Assembly: GCF_027484505.1 (NCBI RefSeq) | Contig: NZ_JAIXSV010000306.1 | Span: 1-64,000, forward strand | DNA length: 64,000 bases | Origin: Asticcacaulis sp. | GTDB taxonomy: Bacteria; Pseudomonadota; Alphaproteobacteria; Caulobacterales; Caulobacteraceae | Direction of reading: 5' to 3' | In this document: piece by piece, positions 6,641 to 54,489 of the stretch | Layout: each line of letters begins with the position of its first letter | Position numbering within the stretch: the first letter of the stretch is position 1 | Notes under the pieces: generated by a model | Database searches by the model: none | Seen by the model: only the letters and a program-made list of their open reading frames with translations | Told to the model about the DNA's origin: nothing | Translations under genes and position numbers: made by a program

Positions 6641-6695
6641 TACATCGCCGGGTGCATTGGAATGGAGGCTATGAGCGATCCGGCGGGGGATGGCA

Positions 6696-6872: not shown

Positions 6873-6874
6873 CA

Positions 6875-16337: not shown

Positions 16338-16341
16338 CGGG

Positions 16342-28156: not shown

Positions 28157-29136
28157 AAATCTCTGAACCAAGCCACGAACCGGGGTAAGCCATCGGCCAG
28201 GCTGATGGTGGGTTCATATCCCAGGTCGCGCCGGCTGCTGTCGATATCAGCGCAGGTACTGGTCACATCCCCCGGCTGCAAAGGGCGGTAGTTGATCTGT
28301 GCCTTCTGCCCCAGCGCCTGCTCGATGATGGCGATCATGTCCGTCAGCTTTTCAGGGCGGTGATTGCCCAGATTGTAGACCACATGCGGAACCCCGTCCG
28401 TATCGGCCGGTGGGACCCGCCGGCTGGCCGCGCAGATGCCGGCGACGATATCGTCGATGAAGGTGAAGTCGCGCCACATCTGCCCATCATTGAACACGTC
28501 GATGGGACGGCCGGCCAGGATGGCGTCTGTGAAAAGATAAACCGCCATGTCCGGGCGCCCCCAGGGACCATAGACGGTGAAGAAACGCAGACCCACAGCC
28601 GGAATCTTAAACAGATGGCTGTAGGTATATGTCATCAGCTCATCCGCGCGCTTGGTTGCGGCATAAAGCGAGATAGGCCGGTTGACCGCATGGTCGACAG
28701 AGAACGGTGTTTCCTTGTTGGCGCCATAGACGGAGGATGAGCTGGCATAAACAAAATTGCGCAGGCCCGGAAGCGCACGGGCCAGTTCCAGCATCACCAC
28801 CTGGCCTTGCAGGTTGGATTGCACATAGGCATAGGGATTGATCAGCGAATAGCGCACGCCCGCCTGTGCTGCCAGATGGATGATCTCCGTGATATCGGGA
28901 TGCTGGCGGGTGATGAAATCGACAAGCCCGATATCGGCAATATCACGGCGGTAGAAAACGAAGTTCGGACGAGCCTCCAGCCGCCGAAGCCTCGCTTCCT
29001 TCAGCGCAACATCATAATAGTCATTAACGATGTCGATGCCGATGACGGTTTCACCAGCGTCCAGGAGGGCCTGGGCGACGGAAAAGCCGATAAATCCCGC
29101 CACACCCGTCACTAACTTGACCATGTCCATATCCAC
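28144..29136 (-). CDS. NAD-dependent epimerase, UDP-glucuronate 4-epimerase-like
   Basis: LVTGVAGFIG, SSSSVYGANKETPFSVDHAVNRPISLYAATKRADELM (YxxxK), RFFTVYGPWGRPDMA. Confidence 0.88.
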   Translation of the reverse strand: MDMDMVKLVTGVAGFIGFSVAQALLDAGETVIGIDIVNDYYDVALKEARLRRLEARPNFVFYRRDIADIGLVDFITRQHPDITEIIHLAAQAGVRYSLINPYAYVQSNLQGQVVMLELARALPGLRNFVYASSSSVYGANKETPFSVDHAVNRPISLYAATKRADELMTYTYSHLFKIPAVGLRFFTVYGPWGRPDMAVYLFTDAILAGRPIDVFNDGQMWRDFTFIDDIVAGICAASRRVPPADTDGVPHVVYNLGNHRPEKLTDMIAIIEQALGQKAQINYRPLQPGDVTSTCADIDSSRRDLGYEPTISLADGLPRFVAWFRDFYGR

Positions 29137-31374: not shown

Positions 31375-31409
31375 TCCTTGTTTCACGGTAACGACGCGGC
31401 AAGCCGATA

Positions 31410-34400
31410 TCAGGAATATTGAGCCAGAAGTGAGGACCATGCCGCCAGATAGCGGTCATGATTGAACAGGTCCAATGCGGTCTGCCGTGCCTTCGTGCCA
31501 ATGCGCGCGGCAGCAGCCCCGTTACGGCACAGGAAGGCAAGATATTCGGCCAGTTCTTCAGGTTGGTCCCCGATGAAACCATTGACGCCATGATGGATGA
31601 ACAGCGACAGATCGTCACTTTCCAGGCCGACCGGTACCACGCCGCTCAACATTGCCTCACCCCGCGACCGCGGCATGGGGGAACGTCGGCTAGTATCCAG
31701 GTAGGCCGTGAACTCAGCAATCCGGGCCGCATAGGAACGGAAACGGGACCAAGCATAGTCGTTGGTACCCCGCGCCCACAGCCCCCCGTCTTCATTCGAC
31801 GCCGTTTCCACGACAATGCCGGGTGGCAGATGCCGTAACACCTGCTCATGTTCGAAGGCACCACGATAATGCGGCCTTTCCCACATGGAGGCGCCAAGAG
31901 CCAGAACATCGCGGCGGCGTGTCGTCTGGCGGTACTCCTGGGGATCGAACCCATGCCATATGACGCGTGAGCGGTGGAAACCCCATTCCCCCTGGGCGGC
32001 ATGGGCATTGACCACCACCTCCACATCATGGGCGCGCATCTTGTCGACCACGGCCTGCCGTTCCGCCTCCATCAGTTCGAACCGGGCAATGGGGCCACGG
32101 GCAACATTATACTGCCCGACAAAGGGAACGGTTCCGTGACAGATGGCGACCTTGGGCAACTTGATATTGTCCAGGAACCAGCGGAAGGACCGCCCCCAAT
32201 CCAGAGGAAGGACACCGGCGCCCAGGGCCGGGTTCAGGCTATTCTCATCGAAATGCAGGATCGCAAGATCATAGCGCGACTCCTTGATGTCGGCCGCATC
32301 GATGAAATTGACGTTGGACCGAAGCGGCCGCTGATCGTAACTCCAGGCGTCGGTCATGCCAGGGCCGAGGCCGCGCACCAGCGTGAATTCATGCGGCAGC
32401 TTGTACAGCTCATACTGGTGGCCGCAATGCCAACGGTAGCTGAGAATGCGCAGCGGGCGGGCCGTATTCTGCGAGATGGCAGGCGCCGCAATGGCAGCGG
32501 CGAAACGCTGGCGCAGGCGGTGATAATCATGGGCGGCATCCTGACGGGCCCGGACGGCGCCGGCCATGATTTCCTTCGCCGTTGCGACCGCCCAGCGGCG
32601 TGCGACCAGCGGCAGATCGGGATGCTTGTCCATCAACAGGTTGAAGTTGCGCATCAGGCCACGCGACTTGGCAGCCTCGTCAATGCTGGACGGGTGCGAC
32701 ATGTGAACCGAGATGGCGGCGGTCGTGAATTTGACCCGCGCCCCGGCCTGATGCAGCCGGTATCCCAGGTCCACATCTTCCCACCCGAACCCCGAACCGG
32801 GGCGGGCACTGTAGCTGAGGTCAAGATCGAAAGGTCCGCTGCCACGATCGACCTGCCGCAGCAAAGTCGCCCGCACCGACATGTTGCGGGTGATGCAGTT
32901 GACGAAGCCGTCCAGTTGCGTGCGGTCCTGCATGGCCATTTCAGCCTTCAGCAACGCCGCATCACCTTGTAACTGTGCGATCAGTTGTTCGGGAGCTCGC
33001 CCGTGGGATTCGATGTTCAGCGGTCCGACAACGACATCCACGTCGGGATGGCTGAGCTCCAGCGCATGGGCGGCCAGGAAGTCGCCATTGAGCAGGCAAT
33101 CGCAGTCGATCACGACATAAGCGTCGGCATGAACAGCCGCGATCCCGATATTGCGGGCTGCACAATTGCCTTGGTTGACCGTCTGCCGGATCAAGGTCAC
33201 GGACAGGCGTGAGCGGCGGTGACGGGCTGCCCAGTTCTCCACCCTGCTGGCACCATCATCCGTGGATGCATCATCGACCAGCACCACACTGATGCGGCCC
33301 CCATAGGATTGGCTGTTCAGACAATCCAGGAACTGCTCAACCGTTGCCGCCTTCTGGTAAAGAACGGTGACGACGGCAATGTGGGGCAGCACCTGCCGCA
33401 GATGATCCTGTCGCAGGCCGGGCAGGCCAGTCGCTGTCAATGGGCTATCCCCACAGGACAGCGTGCCGTTGGGCAGGGGGCGGGCGATCTGGTGGCAGCG
33501 GCGTGCAGTTTGCCGTAGGGCGGAGACGCGGTTGGATAGCGGGCTGTCGGCAATCAACCCATCCGATGGCAGCGATGCCACCTGGTCCTGTGTGTCCAAA
33601 AAGATGGTTGTGACCAGACTGGCATGCAGCAGCCCCATGACCTCATCATGAAGACGGGTGGGTGCCCCGGGCGCCGGCGACACATCCGCCAACAGCACGA
33701 CATCCTTGCGCAGCAATTCGGCCAGCAGCCCGCCCCAGTCGCCTGTAAAGGTCAGGCAACGCAGATCAATACCGGGCAAGGCGCGGCGAACCATTTCCAG
33801 CAGCCGGGCCGGATAAGGATGGTCCTGCGGGACGACCAGGGCCACTGCCAGCCTTATGTCGGCGCCTACCGACGACAGGCTGGCCGACCGCTCAACATAC
33901 CGGGGAAGCAGAGGGTCGATAGCTTCCAGCAGGATTTCCGGTCGCGGCCGGTGTTCCGGCAGAGCCGTGCGGTTGACCACCACGGCATTACAGCTCGTCG
34001 CACTCGTGGTGGGCGAAGTCAGGAGCACCCGGTAGCGGGTGCCGGGCCGGAAGGTGAATCCTTCCAGATCGAACTCGGCATAGCGGGTTTCTGGAACCGG
34101 CAGGGGCCGGATGGCGCGCAGAGCCAGAAGCTCGCCATTCTCGTCAAACAGCTCCATCTGTAACGGCAAGGTGCCACGCCCTATACGCGGGGCGATGCCT
34201 ACCTGCAGCTTTGCCAGACTTGCCGCTGGCGCCTCGAAGCTGAAACTGACTGTGGAGTGGCGGTGGATGGGCAGAACCGCGCGGTCTTCGGGTAACGGAA
34301 AGAACTTCTCCGTCGATTGCCGGAATCGGGCCCCACTCTCGCACCATTCCAGGCCGAAAAGCGGTTCGCGGTGGTGTGCGGCGAGGCGCTCGACCTGTGC

Positions 34401-34907
34401 CACCGGCAAGCCCTGACCGATCAGGCTGCCCCAGACGCGTATATCGGCCGCCATCCCGCCGAGGATCCGCAGCGAAGCGCTGTAAAGGCCGGGTTCGCGC
34501 ACACCGTTGGGGGGAATATTAAACTCGACGACCTGTACGCCGCCATCCGTGCTGGTTTGCGCCTGGCTGGACAGGACTGGGTATTCCACCATGTCCGGAC
34601 CGGACAGATCGAAACGGCTCAGATCCAAGGACAGGTCAAAGCTGACACCAGGCGGCGTTTCCACCTGCAGCGAGAAACCGGTCACGCCTGTCACGCATTG
34701 TACGCTGAAACGCAGCCCTGCCGGCGAAAGCACGCGGAAGACAGGCATTGCCGCCGCTTCCCGACGTTCGCCGAAGCTATACAATACCTGGTGTTCCGCC
34801 GTAGGGCAGGTGATCTGATGCCATGGAACAAACACGGTCTGTTCGCTGTGCGGGGATCGATTTCCCATTTGAACATCGCTCATGACAGACCGAATCCCAC
34901 GAATCAA
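31410..34907 (-). CDS. Very large multidomain glycosyltransferase (GT2 core, C-terminal GT-B-like domain)
   Basis: IAVVTVLYQKAATVEQFLDCLNSQSYGGRISVVLVDDASTDDGASRV...NQGNCAARNIGI...VVIDCDCLL; C-term SPMPRSRGEAMLSGVVPVGLESDDLSLFIHHGVNGFIG. Confidence 0.85.
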   Translation of the reverse strand: MIRGIRSVMSDVQMGNRSPHSEQTVFVPWHQITCPTAEHQVLYSFGERREAAAMPVFRVLSPAGLRFSVQCVTGVTGFSLQVETPPGVSFDLSLDLSRFDLSGPDMVEYPVLSSQAQTSTDGGVQVVEFNIPPNGVREPGLYSASLRILGGMAADIRVWGSLIGQGLPVAQVERLAAHHREPLFGLEWCESGARFRQSTEKFFPLPEDRAVLPIHRHSTVSFSFEAPAASLAKLQVGIAPRIGRGTLPLQMELFDENGELLALRAIRPLPVPETRYAEFDLEGFTFRPGTRYRVLLTSPTTSATSCNAVVVNRTALPEHRPRPEILLEAIDPLLPRYVERSASLSSVGADIRLAVALVVPQDHPYPARLLEMVRRALPGIDLRCLTFTGDWGGLLAELLRKDVVLLADVSPAPGAPTRLHDEVMGLLHASLVTTIFLDTQDQVASLPSDGLIADSPLSNRVSALRQTARRCHQIARPLPNGTLSCGDSPLTATGLPGLRQDHLRQVLPHIAVVTVLYQKAATVEQFLDCLNSQSYGGRISVVLVDDASTDDGASRVENWAARHRRSRLSVTLIRQTVNQGNCAARNIGIAAVHADAYVVIDCDCLLNGDFLAAHALELSHPDVDVVVGPLNIESHGRAPEQLIAQLQGDAALLKAEMAMQDRTQLDGFVNCITRNMSVRATLLRQVDRGSGPFDLDLSYSARPGSGFGWEDVDLGYRLHQAGARVKFTTAAISVHMSHPSSIDEAAKSRGLMRNFNLLMDKHPDLPLVARRWAVATAKEIMAGAVRARQDAAHDYHRLRQRFAAAIAAPAISQNTARPLRILSYRWHCGHQYELYKLPHEFTLVRGLGPGMTDAWSYDQRPLRSNVNFIDAADIKESRYDLAILHFDENSLNPALGAGVLPLDWGRSFRWFLDNIKLPKVAICHGTVPFVGQYNVARGPIARFELMEAERQAVVDKMRAHDVEVVVNAHAAQGEWGFHRSRVIWHGFDPQEYRQTTRRRDVLALGASMWERPHYRGAFEHEQVLRHLPPGIVVETASNEDGGLWARGTNDYAWSRFRSYAARIAEFTAYLDTSRRSPMPRSRGEAMLSGVVPVGLESDDLSLFIHHGVNGFIGDQPEELAEYLAFLCRNGAAAARIGTKARQTALDLFNHDRYLAAWSSLLAQYS

Positions 34908-37165
34908 CGATTAGACAAAGCTTTGGATGCTGCATTCGGGGCCGCCCGCCCGAGGGGGGCTGGCTTCGAGGCCCCCTGTACCGGCAGCATATTCCCTTTC
35001 GGCGGCAGCCCCAGGGCTGACAGGGTGTTACGGACCAGATTTCCCACAGTGAAGCGCTCATGTACTTCGCGTTGGGCACGGCTGGCCAGCGTCAGACGCT
35101 TTGAACTGTCGGCCAGCAATTCGATGCAGGATTTGGTAAGGGCATCGATATCGCCGATTGCATGCATGTAGGGCAGCAGGCAGGGCGCCAGCGCCGACCG
35201 CGTGCCACCAGCATTGGTGCAGACGACCGCAGTACCTTGCCACTGGGCTTCCATGATGACGTTCGGCAACCCTTCTGCCTTGGCCGTGTGTAACAACAGG
35301 TCGGCTGCGCCAAGCAGAACATGCACGTCATTGCAGCGGCCCAGCAACTGGATTGCATCCTCAATCCCATGCATCTGGATGCGGGCAGTCATAGCCCCTT
35401 CCAGGGGACCGATCCCAGCCACCACCGCCTTGAGCTGGGGAAAACGCTGCCGCAGCCGGGCAATGACATCGACAAACAGCAATGGTTCCTTTTCCTGGGC
35501 CAACCGGAAGACACCGGCAATCAAGGGGGAGGAGGAACCAACCCCCAGCCGCAGCCGCGTCTCTACCCGCTGTACCAAGGTCGGCGGCGGTAAATCATCG
35601 ACGGCAATACCATTGACGATAACCTTCACCTGCTTGGTCGGGATGCCCAGCCAACACGCGTAGGATTCGGCACCAGCCTCGGCATTGGCTGTCAGCACCA
35701 CGCGGTCACTGGAAATCAGCCATTGATAGATTTCTCTGAACCAGGGGCGGTGCAGGTTGGGGAAGAAGGTCGGATTGACATTGCGGCCACTGAGCAGGAT
35801 ATGCGGCACCCCTGCCAGCAGTGCCGCCAAACCGCCAACGATATTGATCATGTCGAGATAACAGACCACAGCGATGGGGCGGCTGACCTGCAGGCGCATG
35901 GTTGCCTCCAGCACCCCGACCCTGATCTCCTCCGGCAAGCGTCGCAAGATGCTGGACGCTGCCGCCAAAGTCGGGCTGAGGGGACCCTGCGGCAACTGAA
36001 CCGACTTGCCATCCCCCAGACTGTCGATTGGAATATCGGCACCGGACAGCAGATTATCCGCGTAATGGCGGCCTTCATCCGACAAGGGTGCAATGGTCAG
36101 CAACTCAGGCGCATAGCCCGCTGCCTTCATTCCCCGCGCCAGATTGCAGATCTGCCGTTCAGCGCCCCCCGGACCCAGATAGCCGATCATCAATGTGACC
36201 CGGCGTTGGTCTGCATCGGGCACATAGGTTTGCGTACCATGCTGTTCGCGCCAAGCGGCGAAGCTACGGCCGGCATGGCGAAGCTGGGGCGGGGGCGGTT
36301 TGCTGCCATCCCCTTCCTTCAACAGGGCGAGATCAAGGTCCGCCTGGGCCGTACTAAGTTTGAGCCCGACCATACGGGCCAGACGCCGTTCCATATTGTC
36401 CGGACGGGCCCCGATCTCCAGAAAGGCATACCGGCGTCCATTGGTGTTGGGGCTCGTATTGTCGGAACAGGAGAAGAAAACCTCATGTCGCCAATGGGAA
36501 TAGAGGCCCCGCCCCAGACTACGGATCATCCCGTGATTTGAGTGGGCGACCCCCAGGGGCCGTTTATCCTCAAACAATACCAAGCGCGACCGGCCGCCAT
36601 CGTCGCAATCATCACCCAGCCCGGCGATATCTTGGCACAAAACACGGTAACAATATCCGCTTTCAAAATAGAAAGTGCCGGCTGTACCGAGGCTGGTGCC
36701 CCGCGTGTCCAGCATCTGCTCGCAATAGGCAAGCAATGCCTGCTGAACGCGGGCCTGCCGTGCCGCGCGAGTGGGGTTGCAGGGAACATCGACCAGCGAG
36801 TTGGCGCCAAGAGCGCTGAAAACCGTGTAACCGAACTGCGTGAGATAATTTACGGCCGTCGCCGGAATGGTCGCCGGGCGCGCCAGGAAGACCAGCTCTG
36901 GATGTGCCGCTCCAGAGACCAGGTGCTGAATGGCTTTCGCCTCTTCCCAGGCCTCATCTCGCATCCAGTCGAAAGGGACAATGTCGAAGCCTGTGGCGGG
37001 GGGCATCATGGCACCAGCGCCCATGCCACCAACCACACAGGTCGACAGGTTCGGCAAATCGGTCAGGAATGACAGATCATCGACGTTGCAGAACACCACA
37101 ACCCCGGCCGGGGATTGACAGCCGGCAAGATCCAGATACAGAAAATCTCGAATGTTGAGCGTCAA
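34904..37165 (-). CDS. GT4-like glycosyltransferase containing one SHW module
   Basis: C-term LIAGVFRLAQEKEPLLFVDVIARLRQRFPQLKAVVAGIGPLEGAM...VHVLLGAADLLLHTAKAEGLPNVIMEAQWQGTAVVCTNAGG; internal LVLFEDKRPLGVAHSNHGMIRSLGRGLYSHWRHEVFFSCSDNTSPNTNGRRYAFLE. Confidence 0.85.
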   Translation of the reverse strand: MTLNIRDFLYLDLAGCQSPAGVVVFCNVDDLSFLTDLPNLSTCVVGGMGAGAMMPPATGFDIVPFDWMRDEAWEEAKAIQHLVSGAAHPELVFLARPATIPATAVNYLTQFGYTVFSALGANSLVDVPCNPTRAARQARVQQALLAYCEQMLDTRGTSLGTAGTFYFESGYCYRVLCQDIAGLGDDCDDGGRSRLVLFEDKRPLGVAHSNHGMIRSLGRGLYSHWRHEVFFSCSDNTSPNTNGRRYAFLEIGARPDNMERRLARMVGLKLSTAQADLDLALLKEGDGSKPPPPQLRHAGRSFAAWREQHGTQTYVPDADQRRVTLMIGYLGPGGAERQICNLARGMKAAGYAPELLTIAPLSDEGRHYADNLLSGADIPIDSLGDGKSVQLPQGPLSPTLAAASSILRRLPEEIRVGVLEATMRLQVSRPIAVVCYLDMINIVGGLAALLAGVPHILLSGRNVNPTFFPNLHRPWFREIYQWLISSDRVVLTANAEAGAESYACWLGIPTKQVKVIVNGIAVDDLPPPTLVQRVETRLRLGVGSSSPLIAGVFRLAQEKEPLLFVDVIARLRQRFPQLKAVVAGIGPLEGAMTARIQMHGIEDAIQLLGRCNDVHVLLGAADLLLHTAKAEGLPNVIMEAQWQGTAVVCTNAGGTRSALAPCLLPYMHAIGDIDALTKSCIELLADSSKRLTLASRAQREVHERFTVGNLVRNTLSALGLPPKGNMLPVQGASKPAPLGRAAPNAASKALSNR
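36416..36673 (-). other. SHW module copy E (protein-domain repeat)
   Basis: GYCYRV...LVLFEDKRPLGVAHSNHGMIRSLGRGLYSHWRHEVFFSCSDNTSPNTNGRRYAFLE. Confidence 0.85.
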
Positions 37166-39015
37166 TTGGCAGGCACCGGCACGGGGTTGCGGGATGGGGA
37201 GAGAGCCTTTGCCGGCGGCGGAGAGCGCGCAGGATGGGTGCGCAACCAGCTTTCAAGAATGAACAAGAGCCAGATCTGATAGGCGCTATATGATTGTGTC
37301 TGATGGTCCATGAAGGCGGCGATGCGCTCTACCGGCAGCCAGTTCTGCAACTGGCCGTCTGCGGACAGACAAAGCTTACGGGTGCGGGCCAGCAGCTCAT
37401 CCCGGCCCCAGAGTGACATGGGCAAGCCGAAACCGCGTTTTGGCCGGTCCAGCCAGGCACGGGGCACGAACTGCTCGGCAACACGCTTCAAGATCAGCTT
37501 GCCTTGACCACTGGCGTAGCATTCATCGGGATGAAGACGGGCCGCGAAGCGCGCCACCTCCATGCCCAGCAAGGGCGCCCGCACTTCCAGGCTGTTACGC
37601 ATGCTCATCCGGTCGACCTTGGGCAGAACCGCCCCTGGCATATAGTGGGCTGCATCCATTTCCCGCAGACGGTGGAGCAGTGGCTTATCCGCCAGATTGA
37701 CCGTGTCCCGCAGATGGCGAAGCAAAGCGGCATTACCGGTTGGCATCGGACCTAGCAGACGTTCCACGTCGCGGTCTTCATAAACCAGAATGCGGTTGGA
37801 GAAATAGACATCGCCCGGCTGCCATGCCGGATCGCCTGCCTTCTCCTGTGCCTCGCGCAGGGTGGAGAAATAGCGGCCATAGCCTCCGAACAGCTCGTCC
37901 CCGCCATCACCGGACAGGGCGACGGTGACATGTTCGCGCGCGAACTGTGTGAGAAGATAGGTGGGCAGGCAGGAACTGTCGCCGTTCGGCTCGTCCATCA
38001 TGGCACCGACCTGCTCGCCCAGGGCCAGCATGTCGGGCGCGATGATCTTGTCGCGATGGTCGGTGCCCAGCATCCGGGCCATTTCCCGCGCATCCTCATG
38101 CTCGGACTCCGCTGTATTCTCGAAGCCGATGGAGAAAGTCATGAGGTTGCGGTTCAGGCGCTTTGTTGCGATGGCGGCAACCAGTGTGCTGTCGACTCCG
38201 CCGGACAAAAAAGCCCCAAGAGGCACATCGGAGATCAGCTTGCGCCGTACCGATCGGACAAGAATCTCCTCCAGCTCTTCGGCCAGATCATCAATGGAGC
38301 GGGGGGCAAGGCCAGTCGGTTCCGTTTCGAACGCAAAGTGGCGACCGACCACGATGCTGCCCGTCGGGGACACACGCAGATAGCAACCCGGCGGCAACCG
38401 GCGAACGGAACCATAAATGGACCGTGTACCGGGCACATATTGAAAGCTCAGATAGCCCGCGATGCTTTCATGATCGATGGTCGCATCAAAGCCAGGCAGA
38501 ACAGTCAGTGCCTGCAGCTCTGAAGCGAAGGCAAACAGGCCATTACCTGTCCAGTAATAAAGCGGTTTTTCCCCGAAAGGGTCACGGGCGATGACAAGGC
38601 TGCGATCCTTGTGATCATACAGGGCGAACGCATACATCGCATCGATGCGCGACAGAAGATTAAGCCCTTCTGCCTGCAAACCCTGCAACAGGACCTCTGT
38701 ATCCGACTGTGTGCGGAAAACATGCCCCTTGGCCTCAAGCTCCGCACGTACTTCCTGAAAACTGTAAAGTTCGCCATTGAAGCAGATGGACAGGCGGCCA
38801 TCTGCACTATGCATCGGCTGATGGCCGCCCGAGGAAGTGTCGATGATGCTGAGACGGCGATGGGAAAAGGCGCAATGGCCTGTTTTGTCAACCCAAACAC
38901 CCCCGTCATCCGGGCCGCGATGGATCATCCGATCAGCCATTGCTCCAGCCAGTTGGGCCAACTGCTTGGGGCTCACCTTGTTACCAAAATTGATGATGCC
39001 GGCTATGCCACACAT
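37162..39015 (-). CDS. asnB: Asparagine synthase (glutamine-hydrolyzing)
   Basis: MCGIAGIINFG with Cys2 nucleophile, LSICFNGELYSF, AFLSGGVDSTLVAAIA, LSGDGGDELFGGYGRY. Confidence 0.93.
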   Translation of the reverse strand: MCGIAGIINFGNKVSPKQLAQLAGAMADRMIHRGPDDGGVWVDKTGHCAFSHRRLSIIDTSSGGHQPMHSADGRLSICFNGELYSFQEVRAELEAKGHVFRTQSDTEVLLQGLQAEGLNLLSRIDAMYAFALYDHKDRSLVIARDPFGEKPLYYWTGNGLFAFASELQALTVLPGFDATIDHESIAGYLSFQYVPGTRSIYGSVRRLPPGCYLRVSPTGSIVVGRHFAFETEPTGLAPRSIDDLAEELEEILVRSVRRKLISDVPLGAFLSGGVDSTLVAAIATKRLNRNLMTFSIGFENTAESEHEDAREMARMLGTDHRDKIIAPDMLALGEQVGAMMDEPNGDSSCLPTYLLTQFAREHVTVALSGDGGDELFGGYGRYFSTLREAQEKAGDPAWQPGDVYFSNRILVYEDRDVERLLGPMPTGNAALLRHLRDTVNLADKPLLHRLREMDAAHYMPGAVLPKVDRMSMRNSLEVRAPLLGMEVARFAARLHPDECYASGQGKLILKRVAEQFVPRAWLDRPKRGFGLPMSLWGRDELLARTRKLCLSADGQLQNWLPVERIAAFMDHQTQSYSAYQIWLLFILESWLRTHPARSPPPAKALSPSRNPVPVPAN

Positions 39016-39081
39016 CCCCTAATTCCCCCGCATATGGCGTACCAACCGCCCTGAACGGTCAGTTCCCCGCTGCCTGCACTA

Positions 39082-39741
39082 TCAATTCTGACCGGTCGCC
39101 GTCAGCAGGTCGAGTGCCGCCTTCAACTGACTGATGGTGATGGCCTGTGTACGCAGCAAAGCCAACATCGCGCTGCGGTCCTTGATATCCATCAGCACCG
39201 CATCCTGCTCCTGCAATGCCGGGAAAGTCGCCATCTCGTTGGCTGCCACCGGTTGGCGTGAGAGCAGTGAGAGGGAAATATCGGCCAACCGAGCCGCCAG
39301 ACCATCACGCTGCACACGCAGACCAGAAGCCACCTGTTGCAGATAGGTGGTGGCAGCCGGGTCATTGCCCATTGCGATGGCGAGCTCGGCACAGCCGGTC
39401 AGCACAGATGGATCGCCTGGATTTTCCGTCAACTGCGCCTCGAAAAGCTCCCTCGCCGTCACCAGGTTGCCCGCTAGCATGTGGGCACGCGCCATCTTGG
39501 CACGCACGGCGTTGGGGTTGCGGGCAACGGACACCGCCTGCGCATAGGCGTTAACCGCGAGGTCGAAACGCCCCCCAGCCGCCAAAAAATCCCCTTTTTG
39601 CTCCCAGTCGTCTGGCAATTGCAGCTCAGACCTCTCGGAGGCTTGCGTACTTCCAAAAGACATTTGCACGTGGCCTAGCATGCTACCGACACCTGAGTGA
39701 AGTTCAGCGGCGGAGTGCTGCGCCCCCAGCCGAACAGACAT
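39082..39741 (-). CDS. TPR-like hypothetical protein
   Basis: WEQKGDFLAAGGRFDLAVNAYAQAVSVARNPNAVRAKMARAHMLAGNLVTARELFEAQLTENPGDPSVLTGCAELAIAMGN, a TPR-like pattern. Confidence 0.65.
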   Translation of the reverse strand: MSVRLGAQHSAAELHSGVGSMLGHVQMSFGSTQASERSELQLPDDWEQKGDFLAAGGRFDLAVNAYAQAVSVARNPNAVRAKMARAHMLAGNLVTARELFEAQLTENPGDPSVLTGCAELAIAMGNDPAATTYLQQVASGLRVQRDGLAARLADISLSLLSRQPVAANEMATFPALQEQDAVLMDIKDRSAMLALLRTQAITISQLKAALDLLTATGQN

Positions 39742-39829
39742 AAACTATAATTGATAACCAGATTGTGAATTAGCCCTATGTGACAGGGTCGATTCCGCCT
39801 GGCTACACTCTGCGGGGGAGCCGCTAATG

Positions 39830-39859
39830 TTGACTGACGTTTAACTTAAACGATATTAT
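39830..39859 (+). promoter_or_regulatory. Candidate sigma70-like promoter for the radical SAM gene
   Basis: TTGACT, 18-bp spacer, TATTAT; 28 nt upstream of the ATG at 39888, in an AT-rich divergent intergenic gap. Confidence 0.4.
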
Positions 39860-39887
39860 AACTACAATATGCAGAGGGCTAGACACA

Positions 39888-42356
39888 ATGCGAAATTTTG
39901 AGGCAAATCCCTCCTTTTTGCCCGAAGCCGGTTCGATGGCGGGGTGGGCAGGTGGTGACGTGGAGATCGATGTCCAGGCTGGAGCGCCCGATGGCGGCTA
40001 TGCCTGGCTTGTCTCATTGCCTCATCTTGAGATGTGGGGTGCCTCGCTTGATGCTCCGCTTTCAGGGTCCGTCTTACTTGAAAATGGCGTCGTGATCGGC
40101 CCAGGCAATCAGTCACACGATGACATCCGGAATGCCGGCGGTGGGCGTTTCAGCCATTGGGGCGGGCAATTATGGTTCTCCTCCTCCGATGGTACGGACC
40201 CGCGCACCAACGGTCGCACCTATGTGATCCGGCTCTCTGCGGGCAAAGCCAGTGGTGACGGCGCAAATACCGCGCAGTCTATAACCTTGTCCGGTCCCTA
40301 TGTATTTGACCGCGGCTTCGCCTGGCGGGTTGACTTGAAGGGGCTCGTCGGCGGTCTGCCGATCGACCGTGCATCAATCCGGCTGCTTGAGAATGACAAG
40401 AGTGACGGTTTCATCCTGGCCCCCCCGGAAGAGGTGCGTCGTCTGGGACGTGGCCGGGCATGGCTGGATGAGGATTGCACGCTCTGGTTCTCGACATCGG
40501 ATAGTACCAATCCGAACATGAACCGGCGGCGCTATGTGCTGGAATTCGAGCTGGCGGCGCCGGTCATCGCGCTGCCAGAGCCGGAACAGAGCAAGCCGGA
40601 ACGCCCGCCGGCACCCATTCTGGCCATGGATGTCCCCTATAAGCTTTCGTCGGCGTTCCAGGCGGATGGTGGCAAAGCCTGGGTTATGGACGTCCCCCAG
40701 TTCGAGCCATGGTCGGCGGCACCAGGCCGCAATGGTGTCTTTGCCCGTCTGACGGAGAATGGTCGTCCCCTCGGACCAGGCGACAGCCTGCATGACGATA
40801 TTCGGTCCCAGGGCGGGGGGGCCTTCAGCCTGTGGCAGGGCCGGCTGTGGATTTCCACCTCGGATGGTACGGATCCCAACGATAATGGGCGCAGCTATGT
40901 CCTGACCTTCCCAGACCTGGAGAAGGAACGCATCCCCTACGACAAGCTGTCGTTCGAAAACGGTATCTATGTCGTCGATCTACCTCGACCCTTTTCATCC
41001 GAATCGGGCTTTGCCTGGCAGGCGCAGGTGCCGGCCCTTGCGCATCTCGCCAGCGGCGAGGGCCGGAAATCAGAACTGTTCCTGATCGAGGATGGCCGTT
41101 TCATGAATGGCGCGGAAGCGCTGCACAGTGCGATCCGTGAGCAGGGTGGGGGCCGCTTCAGCCATTGGGGTTCGTCCTTCTGGCTGTCCAGTTCGGATAA
41201 TACCGATCCCAACCGCAATGGCCGGCGTTATCAGATTGGGTACCGGATACATAAGCAGATGTCCGATGGCGGTCTGATCTATCAGCCGGCTGGTCGGCCC
41301 TTCATGTATGTGAAGGATGGTCAGCGTTTTGAGCTGCCCCGCTATTGCAATATCGGTCTCACGAACAAGTGCAACCTTCGATGCGAGATCTGCGGCAGCC
41401 AAAAGTCGCTGGACAATGAGAAGATTTCGCGCCGGTTCATGGATATTGATGCCTTCCGCAAGGTCGCGGAAACCATCATGCCCTTCATGACCGAGGTGGA
41501 GTTGAGCAGCTATGGCGAGCCATCACTTCATCCGGATTTCGAGGAGGTGCTGGCCACGATCCGTGATCATGACTGTGTGTTGAAGCTCCAGACAAACGCA
41601 ACCCTCCTGACCGACCGGGTTATCAACCTGTTGTCGGGCATGGTGGGGACGGTCTGGATGTCCATTGATGCCGTCGGGCCCCTGTTCGACAAGGTCCGCC
41701 TGCGCGGCCGCTGGGAACAGGTTGATCGCGGCGTGCGCGAACTGGCCCGCCGTCGAGACCCCTCGCGCCTCAAGCTCTGCGTGAACCCGACCGTCACCCG
41801 GCGCACCATGCCCGTCATGATCGAGGTTCTGGAATGGGCCTATGAGGTTGGGGTTGAGGCTGTCAATTTCCGTAAATACGACCCGATCATCGGTTCGTTC
41901 GAGGAGCAACCCTCGGCCGACGAACTGAAGCCTTGGATTGAAGCTCTGCACGAATGGGCGGAACGTCATCCCGACGGACCCGATATTCGTTTCGAACCGA
42001 ATTGGGTCCGGCGTCAGTCAACCGTCAACCGCGAAACGGTTGACGCCAATCTCTACAAAATTCCACATGCGGCTCATCCCAACTACCCAATTCCCAGCCA
42101 CAAGCACGGAGCCCATGCGGTCTATAGCTGCATGGCGCCGCTGCAATATGTGGAAATCGGCCTGGATGGCGAGGTTTACGCGTGCTGTCGTACCCAGCGG
42201 ACAGTGCTGGGCTTTGCCACTGACACCGACGAATTCCTGAACACATGGCTGGGTGCCCGCTATCAGCGCCTGAGACAGTCACTGCGTCACGATGAGCTTA
42301 AGCCATTCGTACTGCCCGAATGTGCAGGTTGCGTGAAGAGCTATTACGAAGGTTAG
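39888..42356 (+). CDS. Radical SAM/SPASM-type protein with four N-terminal SHW modules
   Basis: GLTNKCNLRCEICGSQKSL (CxxxCxxC), VELSSYGEPSLHPDFEEVLATIRDHDCVLKLQTNATLL, C-terminal CMAPLQYVEIGLDGEVYACCRTQR...PECAGCVKSYY. Confidence 0.92.
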   Translation: MRNFEANPSFLPEAGSMAGWAGGDVEIDVQAGAPDGGYAWLVSLPHLEMWGASLDAPLSGSVLLENGVVIGPGNQSHDDIRNAGGGRFSHWGGQLWFSSSDGTDPRTNGRTYVIRLSAGKASGDGANTAQSITLSGPYVFDRGFAWRVDLKGLVGGLPIDRASIRLLENDKSDGFILAPPEEVRRLGRGRAWLDEDCTLWFSTSDSTNPNMNRRRYVLEFELAAPVIALPEPEQSKPERPPAPILAMDVPYKLSSAFQADGGKAWVMDVPQFEPWSAAPGRNGVFARLTENGRPLGPGDSLHDDIRSQGGGAFSLWQGRLWISTSDGTDPNDNGRSYVLTFPDLEKERIPYDKLSFENGIYVVDLPRPFSSESGFAWQAQVPALAHLASGEGRKSELFLIEDGRFMNGAEALHSAIREQGGGRFSHWGSSFWLSSSDNTDPNRNGRRYQIGYRIHKQMSDGGLIYQPAGRPFMYVKDGQRFELPRYCNIGLTNKCNLRCEICGSQKSLDNEKISRRFMDIDAFRKVAETIMPFMTEVELSSYGEPSLHPDFEEVLATIRDHDCVLKLQTNATLLTDRVINLLSGMVGTVWMSIDAVGPLFDKVRLRGRWEQVDRGVRELARRRDPSRLKLCVNPTVTRRTMPVMIEVLEWAYEVGVEAVNFRKYDPIIGSFEEQPSADELKPWIEALHEWAERHPDGPDIRFEPNWVRRQSTVNRETVDANLYKIPHAAHPNYPIPSHKHGAHAVYSCMAPLQYVEIGLDGEVYACCRTQRTVLGFATDTDEFLNTWLGARYQRLRQSLRHDELKPFVLPECAGCVKSYYEG
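39996..41251 (+). other. Four tandem SHW modules (copies A1-A4, A2 divergent)
   Basis: GGGRFSHWGGQLWFSSSDGTDPRTNGRTY; RGRAWLDEDCTLWFSTSDSTNPNMNRRRY; GGGAFSLWQGRLWISTSDGTDPNDNGRSY; GGGRFSHWGSSFWLSSSDNTDPNRNGRRY. Confidence 0.9.
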
Positions 42357-42401
42357 GGGGGCTCAATTCGTATGTACTATCAGGTCCCAATGTGAGCTGA
42401 T

Positions 42402-42461
42402 TGACGAGGGCAAGTACAAAGGGATATGCCATTGTATGGTCCAGGTACCTCGCCCTCGTCA
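42402..42461. repeat. Long imperfect hairpin between radical SAM and transglutaminase-like genes
   Basis: TGACGAGGGCAAGTAC paired with GGTACCTCGCCCTCGTCA (10-bp perfect outer stem). Confidence 0.7.
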
Positions 42462-42490
42462 TATATTTGCTTGCAGGCATTGGGGATTAG

Positions 42491-42772
42491 ATGAAGTATT
42501 TCATAATAGAATCAAATAACATAAGGCACGACACAGGCCTTGGCTTTATCGTTGATAATGTTCGCGACATACCTTCTGACGATATAAAGGCGACTAAACG
42601 TAGCGGGTTGCTTCTGCTTGAAGACGGGTTTCCTCTCGGGCCGCCACATAGTGGCCATCAGGATATCCGTGAAAATGGTGGCGGCCAATATTCACATTGG
42701 AAAGGCTATCTGCTTTTCAGCAGCAGCGACGGCAGTGACCCGCGCACGAACGGTCGTCGCTATAGCTATACA
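42491..42772 (+). other. SHW module copy B
   Basis: LLLLEDGFPLGPPHSGHQDIRENGGGQYSHWKGYLLFSSSDGSDPRTNGRRYSYTS. Confidence 0.9.
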
Positions 42773-44566
42773 AGCTTGGAGCATGCCGACAAGGCAGCAT
42801 CCCAGCTTTATGCGACATCAATCCGCTACCTCATTGAAACACATAATTTTCCGCTCGTTCTGGACGATTTTGGAGACACAATTGACGCACAGGGCATCAC
42901 GCGTCTGAGTGTTTTCCTGATGAGCCAGATACTGCGGCGAACCCTTTTCAATATTGAACTGGGCTCCAAGAACAAGACATTCACCTTGGACAAGGAAGCC
43001 GCCAGCATCAGTGGTTTCATAACCAGCAAATACAGGGCGGAGATTGCTATGCTTAGCATCCGCAATAAATCTGCCAGCCCGGCGACGATCACCGGCGTGC
43101 GCTCGCATCTGCATGACACACATTGGAGCTGTGAGGATTTGGTCGCCGCGATCAAGGCGACAGCAGGCGATGATCGTGCAAAGGCCTTTGCGCTTTGGCG
43201 GTATATCAGCATGTTCGGGGTACGGGGAACCGCCGATATTCACCCAAGCCAGCGCCGTGATCCCATGCTGTTTCTTTGGGTTTATGGTGGCGACTGCAAT
43301 GATTTTGCCCATGTCTACTGCCAATTGGCTGAGCGCCTGGGGCTGAAATCAAGAATCATCAAATATGATGGTCACGCTGCTGTAGAGGTCTGGTTTGATG
43401 ACCGTTGGAACCTATTGGACCCGAATCTTTCCTGTTTCTATCGCGATGAACACAATCAAAATCTATTTGATGCAGAATCTGTTGTGGATTCCGTTATAGA
43501 CCGCACAAATTACGGCTATCCGTTTATGGAATCAAAGCAATACGAGGGCGGATACTATAAGTCAACGAAAGATAATTATAGTAGAATTATAAAATCAAAA
43601 TCATACGTCACCCAAGATTCTGAAAAAACAGCGCACTCTCAGGTTTCGATACAATTGAAACCTGACGATGAGATCGTCATTTTTGAAAAAATGCTAGGGA
43701 CAAGTCCTATATTCTTTACAAGAGGGAATTCGATTGTAAGCCCTGGCAATCCGCTGCCCCGTCCTTATCGCTATACTCATACGGCTCATTTTACAGAATC
43801 CACTGTGGAATGGGTCGAGGCGAGCTGTGGTCTACCTGTTCTTGATGCGCGTGTTCGTCTCCACTTACGCGATGATGATACGTTGGGGATGGAGCCGCTG
43901 ACTTTTATCATCGTCTTCGATGACGCGACAGAAATCCCGGTGGAGATATCAACCGTCCATTATATCAATCCGGTCACGATTGAATTTGACCTGGGGCATG
44001 TGCTGTCGCTTCGCGCCACACAGTCACCATCCTTGAAAATCAAGGTTGGGATTCCGGAAAAGCTGACAAGATCGGTGCTGTCGGCCCGGTTCATGCTGAT
44101 CGGCTCTATCCAATCCACCATGCTGCCCTCGCTCAAGCCTGGGGTCTTTGCTTTTCAGCCGCATGGCACTTTCGACAAACTGGAAATGTCAATTAGTGGT
44201 GTTGATTTTATCAAGAGAACAGAGAAGGGGGGGAAATCTCAAACAAAGCTTCCCTACACACCCTTAGTGGCATCAACAAAGGTAGAAGATGTATTCATTG
44301 CCTTTGATTGGAATGGCGAAGAGAATGATTCTTTCCTTGTGGAAATATGCACTGACCCTAATTTTTATGAACCCATCTTGGCCGAGCACATAAATCTTGT
44401 CTCAGGACGCTCATATCGTGTGAGCCGGGATCTGTTTAAAGATCGTCCTGCCCTTCACTATCGCATCACCAAGCTGGATGGTGATGGCCCTGCCTGGGGA
44501 ACGGTGGTCGGTCATATTGACCTGCCGCAGGCCGCGACGGCATCATCGGCAACGGATACGCCATAG
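42491..44566 (+). CDS. Transglutaminase-like (papain-fold) protein with N-terminal SHW module
   Basis: GGDCNDFAHVYCQLAERLGLKSRIIKYDGHAAVEVWFDDRWNLLDPN gives a Cys/His/Asp transglutaminase-like pattern; N-term LLLLEDGFPLGPPHSGHQDIRENGGGQYSHWKGYLLFSSSDGSDPRTNGRRY. Confidence 0.85.
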   Translation: MKYFIIESNNIRHDTGLGFIVDNVRDIPSDDIKATKRSGLLLLEDGFPLGPPHSGHQDIRENGGGQYSHWKGYLLFSSSDGSDPRTNGRRYSYTSLEHADKAASQLYATSIRYLIETHNFPLVLDDFGDTIDAQGITRLSVFLMSQILRRTLFNIELGSKNKTFTLDKEAASISGFITSKYRAEIAMLSIRNKSASPATITGVRSHLHDTHWSCEDLVAAIKATAGDDRAKAFALWRYISMFGVRGTADIHPSQRRDPMLFLWVYGGDCNDFAHVYCQLAERLGLKSRIIKYDGHAAVEVWFDDRWNLLDPNLSCFYRDEHNQNLFDAESVVDSVIDRTNYGYPFMESKQYEGGYYKSTKDNYSRIIKSKSYVTQDSEKTAHSQVSIQLKPDDEIVIFEKMLGTSPIFFTRGNSIVSPGNPLPRPYRYTHTAHFTESTVEWVEASCGLPVLDARVRLHLRDDDTLGMEPLTFIIVFDDATEIPVEISTVHYINPVTIEFDLGHVLSLRATQSPSLKIKVGIPEKLTRSVLSARFMLIGSIQSTMLPSLKPGVFAFQPHGTFDKLEMSISGVDFIKRTEKGGKSQTKLPYTPLVASTKVEDVFIAFDWNGEENDSFLVEICTDPNFYEPILAEHINLVSGRSYRVSRDLFKDRPALHYRITKLDGDGPAWGTVVGHIDLPQAATASSATDTP

Positions 44567-44593
44567 GTGGGCATGTCGGAGAGCGTCCAAGAC

Positions 44594-44670
44594 TGACCCG
44601 GTGAACCGGTTACTGACCTGTTCACCGGGTCAATCGAATGATTGCCGTCAGTCTACATTCCTGACGGCAA
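44594..44670. terminator. Two consecutive hairpins in a convergent gap, candidate terminator region
   Basis: TGACCCGGTGAAC / GTTCACCGGGTCA (13 bp) and TTGCCGTCAG / CTGACGGCAA (10 bp) between convergent 42491+ and 44681-. Confidence 0.55.
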
Positions 44671-44680
44671 AGCCATGGCG

Positions 44681-45790
44681 CTACTTCTGAACAATGAAGG
44701 TCCCACCCAGCACCCTCAAATGATCGACCGGCGCGCTATGGAAGGTGCTGTCCGGTCTGCTTCGAAGACGAGCGAGGAAATCATTGAGATATCCCTCTTC
44801 TATCAGTGTTTCCGGGGTAAACTGCACATGCCTCAAGCCTGTATTGATGAGGATGTCCCGCATCGTTTCGGCTCTCATCCGATTGCCGCGTCCATATTTG
44901 TTGTCGCCGCAGGATTGATCATAAGCCTGTTGGCTCATGAGCAGAAACTCCAAGGGCCGATCAAAGCTGTCATGATCACGGTAATCGACACGGTGAATGC
45001 CCTTGCCATTTGGCTTCATGGTTCTGACCATCGCCGCCATGGCTGACTTGACATCGAAGAGATGTTCAAAAGTCGCGTGGGAGACGGTCAAATCAATCTG
45101 ACCATCCAACTCCACAGCAATAGACTCAAGGGATTGGCGGAATGTCCGTACCCGTTCGCGGTCCAGTTGTCCGGCTGCGACGGACCTGTGCAGCGGCGAT
45201 GGGTCAAAGTCCCAGCCGGCCTTGCGCATCTCCACCTCAAGGCTGGCAGCCATCATGCTATGGATGTCGGGCTTCCAGTCTGGAAGAAAGGGGTCAACAA
45301 CGGTCACTCTGGCGCCTAGACACGCCATGGCCAGGACACTGCCAAGAAACATGCCAGGGCCGACCTCCAGAACCTGCAAATCTCTGAAGCCCTTCATGCC
45401 GTCTGTCAGATATCGCGCATAGAACGCCACGATCTGCATGGCATACTGCGCTCTTTCCCGATAATGCTCTTCTGCCGATTCCCGCACTTCATAAGTGCGG
45501 CCATTCACATTGGGATCGCTGCCATCGCGTGCCGAAAAATAAAGCGTATGCCGCCAGTGCGAGTAGCGCCCGCCACCATGTAGACGTATGTCTCCATGCG
45601 AAGCGTGGGCTGGCCCTAGAAGCTGGTCATCTTCCCTTAACGTCAATGTGGAACGGCTGGTAAAGCCAACATCGTCGGTCAGACTAAACAAGGTAGGGTC
45701 GATTGCTACTCGCCAGCACTGCCCGGCATCATGGGTGAATGGGGGCTTGAGCACGATCGAAGCAGGCTTTTCGGTTGACGGTAATGACAT
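44681..45790 (-). CDS. Class I SAM methyltransferase with N-terminal SHW module
   Basis: VLEVGPGMFLGSVLAMACLGARVTVVDP...DLTVSHATFEHLFDVKSAMAAMVRTMKPNGKGIHRVDYRDHDSFDRPLEFLL. Confidence 0.88.
   Translation of the reverse strand: MSLPSTEKPASIVLKPPFTHDAGQCWRVAIDPTLFSLTDDVGFTSRSTLTLREDDQLLGPAHASHGDIRLHGGGRYSHWRHTLYFSARDGSDPNVNGRTYEVRESAEEHYRERAQYAMQIVAFYARYLTDGMKGFRDLQVLEVGPGMFLGSVLAMACLGARVTVVDPFLPDWKPDIHSMMAASLEVEMRKAGWDFDPSPLHRSVAAGQLDRERVRTFRQSLESIAVELDGQIDLTVSHATFEHLFDVKSAMAAMVRTMKPNGKGIHRVDYRDHDSFDRPLEFLLMSQQAYDQSCGDNKYGRGNRMRAETMRDILINTGLRHVQFTPETLIEEGYLNDFLARLRSRPDSTFHSAPVDHLRVLGGTFIVQK
45479..45727 (-). other. SHW module copy C
   Basis: LTLREDDQLLGPAHASHGDIRLHGGGRYSHWRHTLYFSARDGSDPNVNGRTYEVRE. 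Confidence 0.9.
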
Positions 45791-45981
45791 CTGATCTGAC
45801 CGGTGAATTGCTAATGCCTAATGGATGACACTTCAGGTGGGCAGGGGCAATCCCCAAATATCCCGGCACAATACAGGTGGCCCTATCATGCCGAGCTGAC
45901 CTTGTTGTAACCGGTAGACTAATGGCACGCAGGCCTGTAACAGGGTATGAAATTATTCTGTGCAGTTAACGGTGGGACACA

Positions 45982-47103
45982 ATGGAAGTAAAGCTGACCG
46001 CTCCGTTTCGTCACCATGACGGCCACTGCTTTCAAAAGAATGTGTTCGACCTTGCCCTCTATGCGGACTCACCCGTCGGGAACCGATCAAACACGGTGCT
46101 GCTAGAAGATGGAAAGCCTTTGGGGCCGGCGCACGCCCTTCACCAAGACATCGCTCAGAAAGGCCGCGGCGCCTTCAGCCACTGGCAGCAGGGTCTCTGG
46201 TTCTCTACGAGTGATAATTCAAACCCAAATAATAATGGTCGAGAATACAGTATATTTATCGACGAATCGACCATAAAAGGGGATCATAAATCTGATTTGG
46301 TCGCCAATGCAGTCGCGCAGACCTTATCAGTGACAATTGGTTATTTAAGAGAATTTCGAACGCATTTTAGTATCAGCCATGATCATCAGCCAGAGGTTTT
46401 GGAGATCGGCGCAAGATATCTGGGTGTCGCCGCGATCCTTGCCTCGATGGGTGCCAAGGTCACTGTCGTCGAGCCCGAACCGATTGTTTGGCGCTCTGAT
46501 TTCAGCGCTCAATTCTATGAGACCTTACGTGCGGAAGCGCCATGGCATGGCTTGACCTTGCCTGACCCCTCCATCATCGAAGCTATTCTGCACAGCGAAG
46601 GGGAGATAACCCCGAACATCACGGTGCTGCAAACAACAGGCGAGGAGATGGATGTTCATCGTTTCAAGAGCAAGTTTGACTTCATCTTCTCAAATTCTGT
46701 TCTGGAGCATATTTTCGATCCGCAGCGAGTGATGGAGAATTTAGCCTATTGTGCCAAACCCTGGTCCCATTCCCGCCATGGTGTCGATTACCGGGATCAT
46801 CGGAATTTCGATGACCCTCTGGGATTTATGCTGCTGGACGATATTGAGTACCGGACCAAGCTGGTCAACAAGGACACAGCGCGTGGCAACAGGCTTCGGC
46901 CCTCCGAACTGGAATACTGGATCAATCGGTGCGGTTTCAGCGTGGCCGAACGGAAGGTCCGTGAATACAACATGGAAAGCTATATCAACCGGCATCGTGA
47001 ATTGGTCCTGAATAGCGGCCTGAGCCGTCAGTATGCAAACTGCTCCGCGGTTGACCTGTATGAGAACTCTGTCCTATATACCCTGACGCGCCTTCCGGAT
47101 TAA
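45982..47103 (+). CDS. Class I SAM methyltransferase with N-terminal SHW module (paralogue of 44681-45790)
   Basis: VLEIGARYLGVAAILASMGAKVTVVEP...DFIFSNSVLEHIFDPQRVMENLAYCAKPWSHSRHGVDYRDHRNFDDPLGFMLL. Confidence 0.88.
   Translation: MEVKLTAPFRHHDGHCFQKNVFDLALYADSPVGNRSNTVLLEDGKPLGPAHALHQDIAQKGRGAFSHWQQGLWFSTSDNSNPNNNGREYSIFIDESTIKGDHKSDLVANAVAQTLSVTIGYLREFRTHFSISHDHQPEVLEIGARYLGVAAILASMGAKVTVVEPEPIVWRSDFSAQFYETLRAEAPWHGLTLPDPSIIEAILHSEGEITPNITVLQTTGEEMDVHRFKSKFDFIFSNSVLEHIFDPQRVMENLAYCAKPWSHSRHGVDYRDHRNFDDPLGFMLLDDIEYRTKLVNKDTARGNRLRPSELEYWINRCGFSVAERKVREYNMESYINRHRELVLNSGLSRQYANCSAVDLYENSVLYTLTRLPD
46015..46260 (+). other. SHW module copy D
   Basis: VLLEDGKPLGPAHALHQDIAQKGRGAFSHWQQGLWFSTSDNSNPNNNGREYSIFI. 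Confidence 0.9.
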
Positions 47104-47211: not shown

Positions 47212-47535
47212 ATGAACTCCTTTGTCCTTAAGCGGGATGCCTATGGCACCCCGACCCATCTTCCCAACATATCGCCCTGGCGGTTCGCACGCCCGCTCAA
47301 TGCCAATGAGGCGGTGACGGTGACGGTGCCTTCCTGGGCCCAGACCATGACCATGGCGGCCACGGTCGATTTCTGGGTGCAGTATGGCGGTGCCGCAGCC
47401 GTTATCCCGACGGTGGCCATCATCGATGGCTCTGCCCCGGAACTGAATCCGATCGGGCGGCAGATCACCGGCGGCAGCACGCTGTCCGTCATATCGGCAG
47501 CGGCAGGGCATATCGCAATCTGCTTCTATGGATGA
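47212..47535 (+). CDS. Small phage/tail-fibre-associated-like hypothetical protein
   Basis: MNSFVLKRDAYGTPTHLPNISPWRFARPLNANEAVTVTVPSWAQTMTMAATVDFWVQYGG; immediately upstream of a tail-fibre-like ORF. Confidence 0.55.
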   Translation: MNSFVLKRDAYGTPTHLPNISPWRFARPLNANEAVTVTVPSWAQTMTMAATVDFWVQYGGAAAVIPTVAIIDGSAPELNPIGRQITGGSTLSVISAAAGHIAICFYG

Positions 47536-48278
47536 GGTGGACGATGACTGGATACTCCTATCCCCCTTCCAGGAGCCGGGATGCTGGCCCCCCATCAGGT
47601 CCGCTGCCTCTTCCCGACGGCACGGCGGCCATCCCGGCATTGACCTTCACGGCAGACACCGATACCGGCCTGTTCCGTCCGGGCGCGAACCAGATCGGCA
47701 TAGCGGTCGGGGGGACAAGCCGCCTGACCGCCACCCCCCAGGGAGCCGTGATCGCCGGGACCTTGACGGTTGAAAGCAGCGGCACGCACCGGGTCAAGGC
47801 TGCGGGCCAACTTCCGGAGATCATGCTGGAACGGTATGCCGGCACGCTAGCCGCCCCAACGGCCACACAGGCCAATGACATATTGGGCCGGTTTGTGTTT
47901 GGCGGACATACCGGTGCTGGAGAAACCTTCAACCGGGCAGGGCTCTGGTGCCGGGCGGTGGAAACCTTCACGGCCTCGGCAAACGGCACGCAGTTCGAGA
48001 TGTGGACGACACCGACAGGATCGACCACCACGGCCCGCCGTCTGACGGTGGAGGCGACCGGCGCGGTCAATCTGGAAACCGGCCCACTCAAGATGGCTGG
48101 TGCCGAAGTGCTGAACAGCGCCCGACACCTGGTGCTGAGGGCCTATACGGTAGCCACGTTACCAACGGCCGCTGTGGCAGGCCAACTGGTCCATGTCAGC
48201 AACGGTTCCGCCAACCGGTATCTGGCCATTTCAGATGGCAGCCAATGGCGCTTCCAGGATGGCAGCGTCGTCAGTTGA
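47532..48278 (+). CDS. Phage tail-fibre-like protein
   Basis: ALTFTADTDTGLFRPGANQIGIAVGGTSRLTATPQGAVIAGTLTV...AVNLETGPLKMAG, a beta-helical fibre-like pattern. Confidence 0.6.
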   Translation: MRWTMTGYSYPPSRSRDAGPPSGPLPLPDGTAAIPALTFTADTDTGLFRPGANQIGIAVGGTSRLTATPQGAVIAGTLTVESSGTHRVKAAGQLPEIMLERYAGTLAAPTATQANDILGRFVFGGHTGAGETFNRAGLWCRAVETFTASANGTQFEMWTTPTGSTTTARRLTVEATGAVNLETGPLKMAGAEVLNSARHLVLRAYTVATLPTAAVAGQLVHVSNGSANRYLAISDGSQWRFQDGSVVS

Positions 48279-48538: not shown

Positions 48539-48675
48539 TGAACGGGGGAGGAGTGCAGAGCCGGACCCTATCGGTCTGAACCATCTTCCTGCCCGGCTTA
48601 AATGCGTAGGTTTCGCCGGTTGTGCCTGATATGGTGTTGTTCTGTCTCCTCTTTCCCAGATGCCGAATGGTGGTC

Positions 48676-54470: not shown

Positions 54471-54489
54471 GACCATGAACGATCTCCGG

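Follow-up and report, generated by a model that had tools for sequence, protein, structure and literature searches.

Genes and module copies of the block

Five proteins encoded in the window, the 64,000-nucleotide stretch of Asticcacaulis sp. DNA that we analysed, share a module of about 80 residues (Table 1). An HMM search of the organism's own genome recovered all eight segments (8/8) that an earlier note, made from the sequence alone, had aligned in these proteins, with E values from 4e-28 to 5e-39. HMM and protein searches yielded no further copies elsewhere in the 4.66 Mb genome. The SHW consensus proposed at that time describes most copies; in the alignment, the second copy of the radical SAM protein lacks SHW and the third reads SLW. 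Across phyla, E42, H54, G61, G63, S66-H67-W68, N85, G86, R87 and Y89 are near-invariant in the module alignment, a conservation that is partly inflated because the genome scan demanded [FL]S[TSA]SDN[ST]DP, and part of the motif's invariance is thus search bias.

Table 1. Genes and module copies of the block and its surroundings, by position in the window
Feature	Position	Strand	Basis
Nucleotide-sugar epimerase, candidate UDP-glucuronate 4-epimerase	28144..29136	-	PF16363/PF01370
Protein adjoining GT2 gene	29158..31440	-	no Pfam match; conserved in A. lipoferum
GT2 glycosyltransferase adjoining block	31410..34907	-	PF00535
GT4 glycosyltransferase, one module	34904..37165	-	Pfam PF00534 E 3e-21
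Module copy, GT4	36419-36676	-	HMM E 9.5e-38
asnB-type glutamine amidotransferase, without module	37162..39015	-	PF00733 E 1e-79
TPR protein	39082..39741	-	TPR matches
Radical SAM/SPASM protein, four N-terminal modules	39888..42356	+	PF04055, PF13186
Module copy 1, radical SAM protein	39984-40235	+	HMM E 1.4e-35
Module copy 2, radical SAM protein, degenerate	40296-40547	+	HMM E 3.6e-28; alignment
Module copy 3, radical SAM protein	40653-40910	+	HMM E 1.2e-35
Module copy 4, radical SAM protein	40989-41243	+	HMM E 2.6e-35
Transglutaminase-like protein, one N-terminal module	42491..44566	+	PF01841 E 2e-8
Module copy, transglutaminase-like protein	42521-42772	+	HMM E 2.3e-35
Methyltransferase 1, one N-terminal module	44681..45790	-	PF08241/PF13489
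Module copy, methyltransferase 1	45479-45742	-	HMM E 1.5e-38
Methyltransferase 2, one N-terminal module, paralogue of 1	45982..47103	+	PF13489
Module copy, methyltransferase 2	46003-46260	+	HMM E 5.2e-39; copy modelled, pLDDT 96.7
Phage-tail-fibre-like protein	47532..48278 (also listed as 47310-48278)	+	conserved beside module methyltransferase in Azospirillum
Divergent asnB-like protein	48622..50307	+	weak NCBIfam matches
UDP-glucose 6-dehydrogenase (makes UDP-glucuronate)	53139..54470	+	PDB 4a7p E 1.8e-187

The enzyme parts to which the modules had been assigned agree with Pfam (PF00534; PF04055 with PF13186; PF01841; PF13489/PF08241). What had been counted as five different enzymes are five proteins of four enzyme classes, since the two methyltransferases are paralogues with 28% identity. 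The radical SAM/SPASM protein carries CNLRCEIC, a CxxxCxxC motif, and matches PF04055 (E 2e-13) and PF13186 (E 2e-5). In the transglutaminase-like protein, the Cys-His-Asp catalytic triad of the superfamily (C269, H295, D310) is invariant in an alignment of 16 homologues; the predicted structure of the full protein (pLDDT 58.9) is too low in confidence for a fold search. The candidate epimerase matches the PDB entries 5u4q (E 1e-104) and 6zl6/6zla (E 1e-48). A minus-strand ORF at 53097-54476 was rejected as a separate gene, being the antisense shadow of the UDP-glucose dehydrogenase gene.

Predicted fold of the module

The module had not been recognised as a named family, and a scan of 113 members bore this out: neither Pfam, NCBIfam nor PHROG gave a family match that was convincing, and no PDB sequence matched. 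The same 113 members gave no match to the CBM families of Pfam, which lacks some CAZy CBM families. None matched Wzt_C (PF14524), and in a protein that has both, the module lies outside the PF14524 region. No mention of the motif strings SDNSDP, SDNTDP or SDGSDP was found in the literature searched.

An AlphaFold model based on the alignment of 113 modules predicts a small alpha+beta fold (pLDDT 96.7, pTM 0.88) made of seven strands and two helices, all of them short. Foldseek against the PDB returned nothing significant (best E 0.11; TM <0.5 among the matches listed) and no resemblance to solved CBM folds. A small beta-rich carbohydrate-binding fold had been suggested earlier; the model contains two helices in addition to its strands and matched no solved carbohydrate-binding fold.

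Conservation, clustering and spread

Two Azospirillum genomes, Azospirillum sp. TSO35-2 and A. lipoferum Sp59b, keep the order GT2, GT4 (with module), asnB, TPR, radical SAM, transglutaminase-like (with module); the radical SAM counterpart has three modules, compared with four in the window. Identities to TSO35-2 are 61% for GT4 (catalytic part), 75% for asnB, 73% for the radical SAM protein (catalytic domain) and 28% for the transglutaminase. The TPR protein occupies the same position in both genomes at 31-33% identity (31% in TSO35-2), and the syntenic GT2 is 45-46% identical. The asnB and TPR genes, once taken for interruptions, are thus members of the block. Near the Azospirillum block, in rearranged order, lie genes for module methyltransferase 1 (49% identical, likewise with a module), the tail-fibre-like protein (34% identity over 92%, in two clusters), the second asnB-like protein (31-32%) and UDP-glucose dehydrogenase, the last detected through a match to the antisense shadow of the window gene. 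The protein at 29158..31440 has a counterpart beside the GT2 gene of A. lipoferum (37% identity over 96%). Because it is conserved beside a module methyltransferase in both Azospirillum clusters, the tail-fibre-like protein may be a genuine cluster member and not prophage debris. The related block is accordingly larger than the 34904-47103 first proposed, Azospirillum synteny extending, with rearrangement, from about 29158 to 54470.

Vicinamibacterial and planctomycete loci retain the module-bearing radical SAM gene, asnB and module-bearing companions, and Magnetospirillum SS-4 has eight module genes within 27 kb. The observed clustering was reached in 0 of 20,000 random placements for nine genomes, which were selected in part for their clustering; of 14 genomes that have two or more module genes, 2 show none. 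The proposal of the earlier note is partly supported: the module is common to catalytically different enzymes that cluster, these enzymes recur together in other genomes, and their surroundings are glycan biosynthesis genes, glycan being among the settings it had considered, while carbohydrate binding and a single substrate for all five proteins are putative. The outcomes named as contrary to it, a match to a named domain or occurrence solely on isolated unrelated carriers, were not encountered; solitary carriers do occur, however, and are common in Bacteroidota and Armatimonadota.

An asnB gene lies within ~10 kb of 9 of 12 module loci but of only 6 of 40 module-free GT4 loci (Fisher p 2e-4), in a comparison of 12 genomes that took its control loci from the same genomes and in which related species make the data non-independent. 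UDP-glucose dehydrogenase was not enriched near module loci relative to the GT4 control loci, and we rejected it as a marker of them. A UDP-glucuronate 4-epimerase-like gene was present at 18 loci, all in Pedobacter, Mucilaginibacter and relatives (one clade), and at 0/40 controls. No radical SAM homologue lacking the module was found at E <1e-30 among 398 other genomes, making a contrast with the module-bearing ones impossible.

With one narrow pattern, we found 273 module relatives in genome contigs of at least 10 bacterial phyla, as judged from record titles. The module is uncommon in the class, with 7 of 385 genomes (the source genome included, and some matches weak), and was found in 2 of 99 genomes of the family. 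Its partners include GT4, GT61, several methyltransferase families, FkbM and sulfotransferases, together with radical SAM proteins with a SPASM or B12 domain, transglutaminase-like proteins, Gfo/Idh oxidoreductases, SGNH and PMT-like membrane proteins. It is also carried by secreted lyases of three pectic families (PF00544, PF09492, PcRGLX) and, between ATPase and Wzt_C, by Wzt polysaccharide exporters. The module is N-terminal, C-terminal or internal, stands in tandem in up to four copies, and is found on both sides of the membrane. Solo module proteins exist as membrane-anchored forms or lipoproteins, the lipoproteins within exopolysaccharide clusters.

Some individual carriers deserve mention. 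The exporter order was Pfam-checked in L116 (4771-6738) and L081 (9188-10873), with which a further Wzt-type exporter with module, L052 (5660-8053), groups by similarity. Short proteins with an apparent single transmembrane helix followed by one module are seen in L032, L033, L035-L039, L087 and L107, which are Bradyrhizobium genomes and contigs of viral or prophage origin. A Magnetospirillum MAG (L076, 810-2450) encodes a B12-binding radical SAM protein whose module is C-terminal. In L089, asnB, a weak module and GT4 share a single open frame (15745-19647, minus strand), which suggests an asnB-GT4 fusion with the module in between, or two joined genes.

Against a viral-model library, the fold had five strong structural matches, each of them a protein of Hyperionvirus or Harvfovirus (E 2e-11 to 1e-8, TM 0.82-0.93). 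Four bear the annotations galacturonosyltransferase 6-like, glutamine amidotransferase type 2, radical SAM and class I methyltransferase; the fifth is uncharacterised. The same module appears on classes much like those of the window block (glycosyltransferase, asnB-type amidotransferase, radical SAM, methyltransferase), although the viral proteins are known here from predicted structures alone. Fifteen IMG/VR contigs carry the module. One of them, L026, from soil, looks like a true tailed phage in its gene content. There, a module-bearing methyltransferase directly adjoins a tail spike gene (5233-6138 and 6075-7835), and near-identical versions occur in L027 and L029-L031.

A putative glycan tether and its alternatives

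We favour, with a probability of roughly 0.55, the reading that the module is an undescribed, CBM-like accessory recognition domain by which different enzymes are kept on one surface polysaccharide; both the binding and the shared ligand are what we infer from the company the module keeps. At the window locus, the module would keep the GT4, the radical SAM protein, the transglutaminase-like enzyme and the two methyltransferases on the chain as it grows in the cytoplasm. Elsewhere among bacteria, it would bring Wzt exporters and secreted pectic lyases to the glycan that they handle. Enzymes tethered in this way could build, modify, export or cut one polymer. Support comes from a set of partners in which glycan enzymes predominate (GT4, GT61, methyltransferases, FkbM, sulfotransferases, PMT-like, SGNH), from the module inside Wzt adjoining a known glycan-binding domain, from the pectic-lyase carriers, solo anchored forms, presence on both membrane sides and tandem copies as in CBMs, and from the near-invariant residues across phyla and the asnB enrichment. 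Counting against it are the lack of a CBM-like fold or Pfam CBM match and the near-invariant polar residues, an unusual trait among CBMs whose ligands vary. Module similarity tracks the partner enzyme (p about 0.03) and not the locus (p about 0.4), which leaves a locus-specific ligand unsupported; nor did the modules of one locus show concerted evolution, which would have been taken to prove that they share a ligand. This lack of locus covariation implies either one ligand common to all modules or no glycan ligand.

Known systems resemble the module in part. Like CBMs, it is a discrete domain on carbohydrate-active enzymes (GT4, GT61, PF00544, PF09492 and PcRGLX proteins), its isolated fold being a prediction, and it is small, tandem, variable in position and joined to unrelated catalytic domains that include pectic lyases. 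It differs in matching no Pfam CBM or solved structure and in residing mainly on biosynthetic cytoplasmic enzymes (radical SAM, methyltransferase, asnB-like), and its glycan binding is putative. Terminated glycan chains are bound by a known domain of Wzt (PMC3482155). This Wzt_C domain (PF14524) operates in pathways of the same type and can share a protein with the module, but it is a separate domain, side by side with the module in L081 and L116, and no sequence relation was found. The WbdD-type methyltransferase of the E. coli O8/O9a O-antigen acts on the polysaccharide chain and is coupled to exporter recognition (PMC3482155). As a methyltransferase in a polysaccharide setting it offers a candidate parallel to those of the window, but WbdD has a kinase and a coiled coil and lacks the module.

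Alternatively, the module could be a protein-protein docking element, the enzymes being assembled on a shared scaffold (e.g. the TPR protein) or by contacts between modules. It is common to several enzymes of one locus and co-inherited with its partners, its conserved residues hardly vary from host to host, and a TPR gene lies within the alphaproteobacterial block. We nevertheless consider docking unlikely: the module also sits on lone secreted lyases, lipoproteins, membrane-anchored solo forms and phage and giant-virus enzymes, and the TPR homologue was found only at the window and Azospirillum loci. Recognition of the membrane or of a lipid carrier (undecaprenyl-PP-glycan), which would keep enzymes at the lipid-linked intermediate, has the merit that one universal ligand would account for both the near-invariant residues and the missing locus covariation, and cytoplasmic enzymes and Wzt are among the carriers. 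Yet the secreted lyases and lipoproteins of Bacteroidota would not meet such a carrier, and giant-virus proteins would act in eukaryotic hosts, which are not known to have undecaprenyl-PP. We give this idea little chance.

The enzyme classes of the locus also admit a RiPP-like pathway, in which the radical SAM/SPASM, transglutaminase-like and asnB enzymes would act on a module-bound peptide. These classes are typical of peptide maturation, and the NCBIfam neighbours agree with that. No precursor peptide was noticed among the genes examined, however. Beyond this locus the module is joined to glycosyltransferases, pectic lyases, Wzt and sulfotransferases, and the window is rich in nucleotide-sugar and glycosyltransferase genes; peptide recognition seems very improbable. 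A stabilising or metal-binding structural domain without a specific ligand is the explanation to which we assign the least weight. The sequence of the conserved D-N-S-D-P-x-x-N-G-R loop would be compatible with calcium binding, but tandem copies, mobile position and solo anchored forms better suit a recognition module.

If the glycan-tether reading is right, the polysaccharide is possibly uronic-acid-rich, which is the weakest part of the explanation. The idea derives from the pectic lyases, the UDP-glucose dehydrogenase and candidate epimerase of the window, and asnB. It is weakened by the missing dehydrogenase enrichment, by the one-clade epimerase signal and by the published O-polysaccharide of A. 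lipoferum Sp59b, which consists of Gal/Rha/Man without uronic acid (PMC4153317). Sp59b carries the cluster; we rejected the O-antigen as product because that structure does not fit (PMC4153317), and the product is probably another glycan. Flagellin glycosylation was also rejected, flagellin genes not being near the cluster in the source genome, Azospirillum or Magnetospirillum.

More tentatively, the module may serve universally, and hitherto undescribed, in glycan recognition, its fold having no representative in the PDB so far. It would mark the enzymes of transfer, methylation, radical chemistry, amidation, export and trimming in one kind of polysaccharide pathway, and would have travelled as a set among bacteria, phages and giant viruses. 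We regard this wider proposal as possible and short of probable. A single searchable domain would flag the members of an uncharacterised polysaccharide pathway across bacteria and giant viruses, among them radical SAM and transglutaminase-like enzymes without a known substrate, for which the module's ligand would give a handle on the substrate. If the ligand is conserved, the module could also serve as a new glycan probe.

Other genes of the window lie outside the block. An ABC exporter with a C39-like peptidase domain (9759-12023, minus strand), possibly a type I secretion system, is located in the glycan region, and an RgpF-type rhamnan synthesis glycosyltransferase (PF05045) is encoded at 17433-18455 (plus strand). 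Aminotransferase (Pfam DegT), ketoisomerase-like and hexapeptide acyltransferase-like ORFs at 55013-59325 (minus strand) resemble, by eye, a dTDP-acetamido-dideoxy-sugar pathway.
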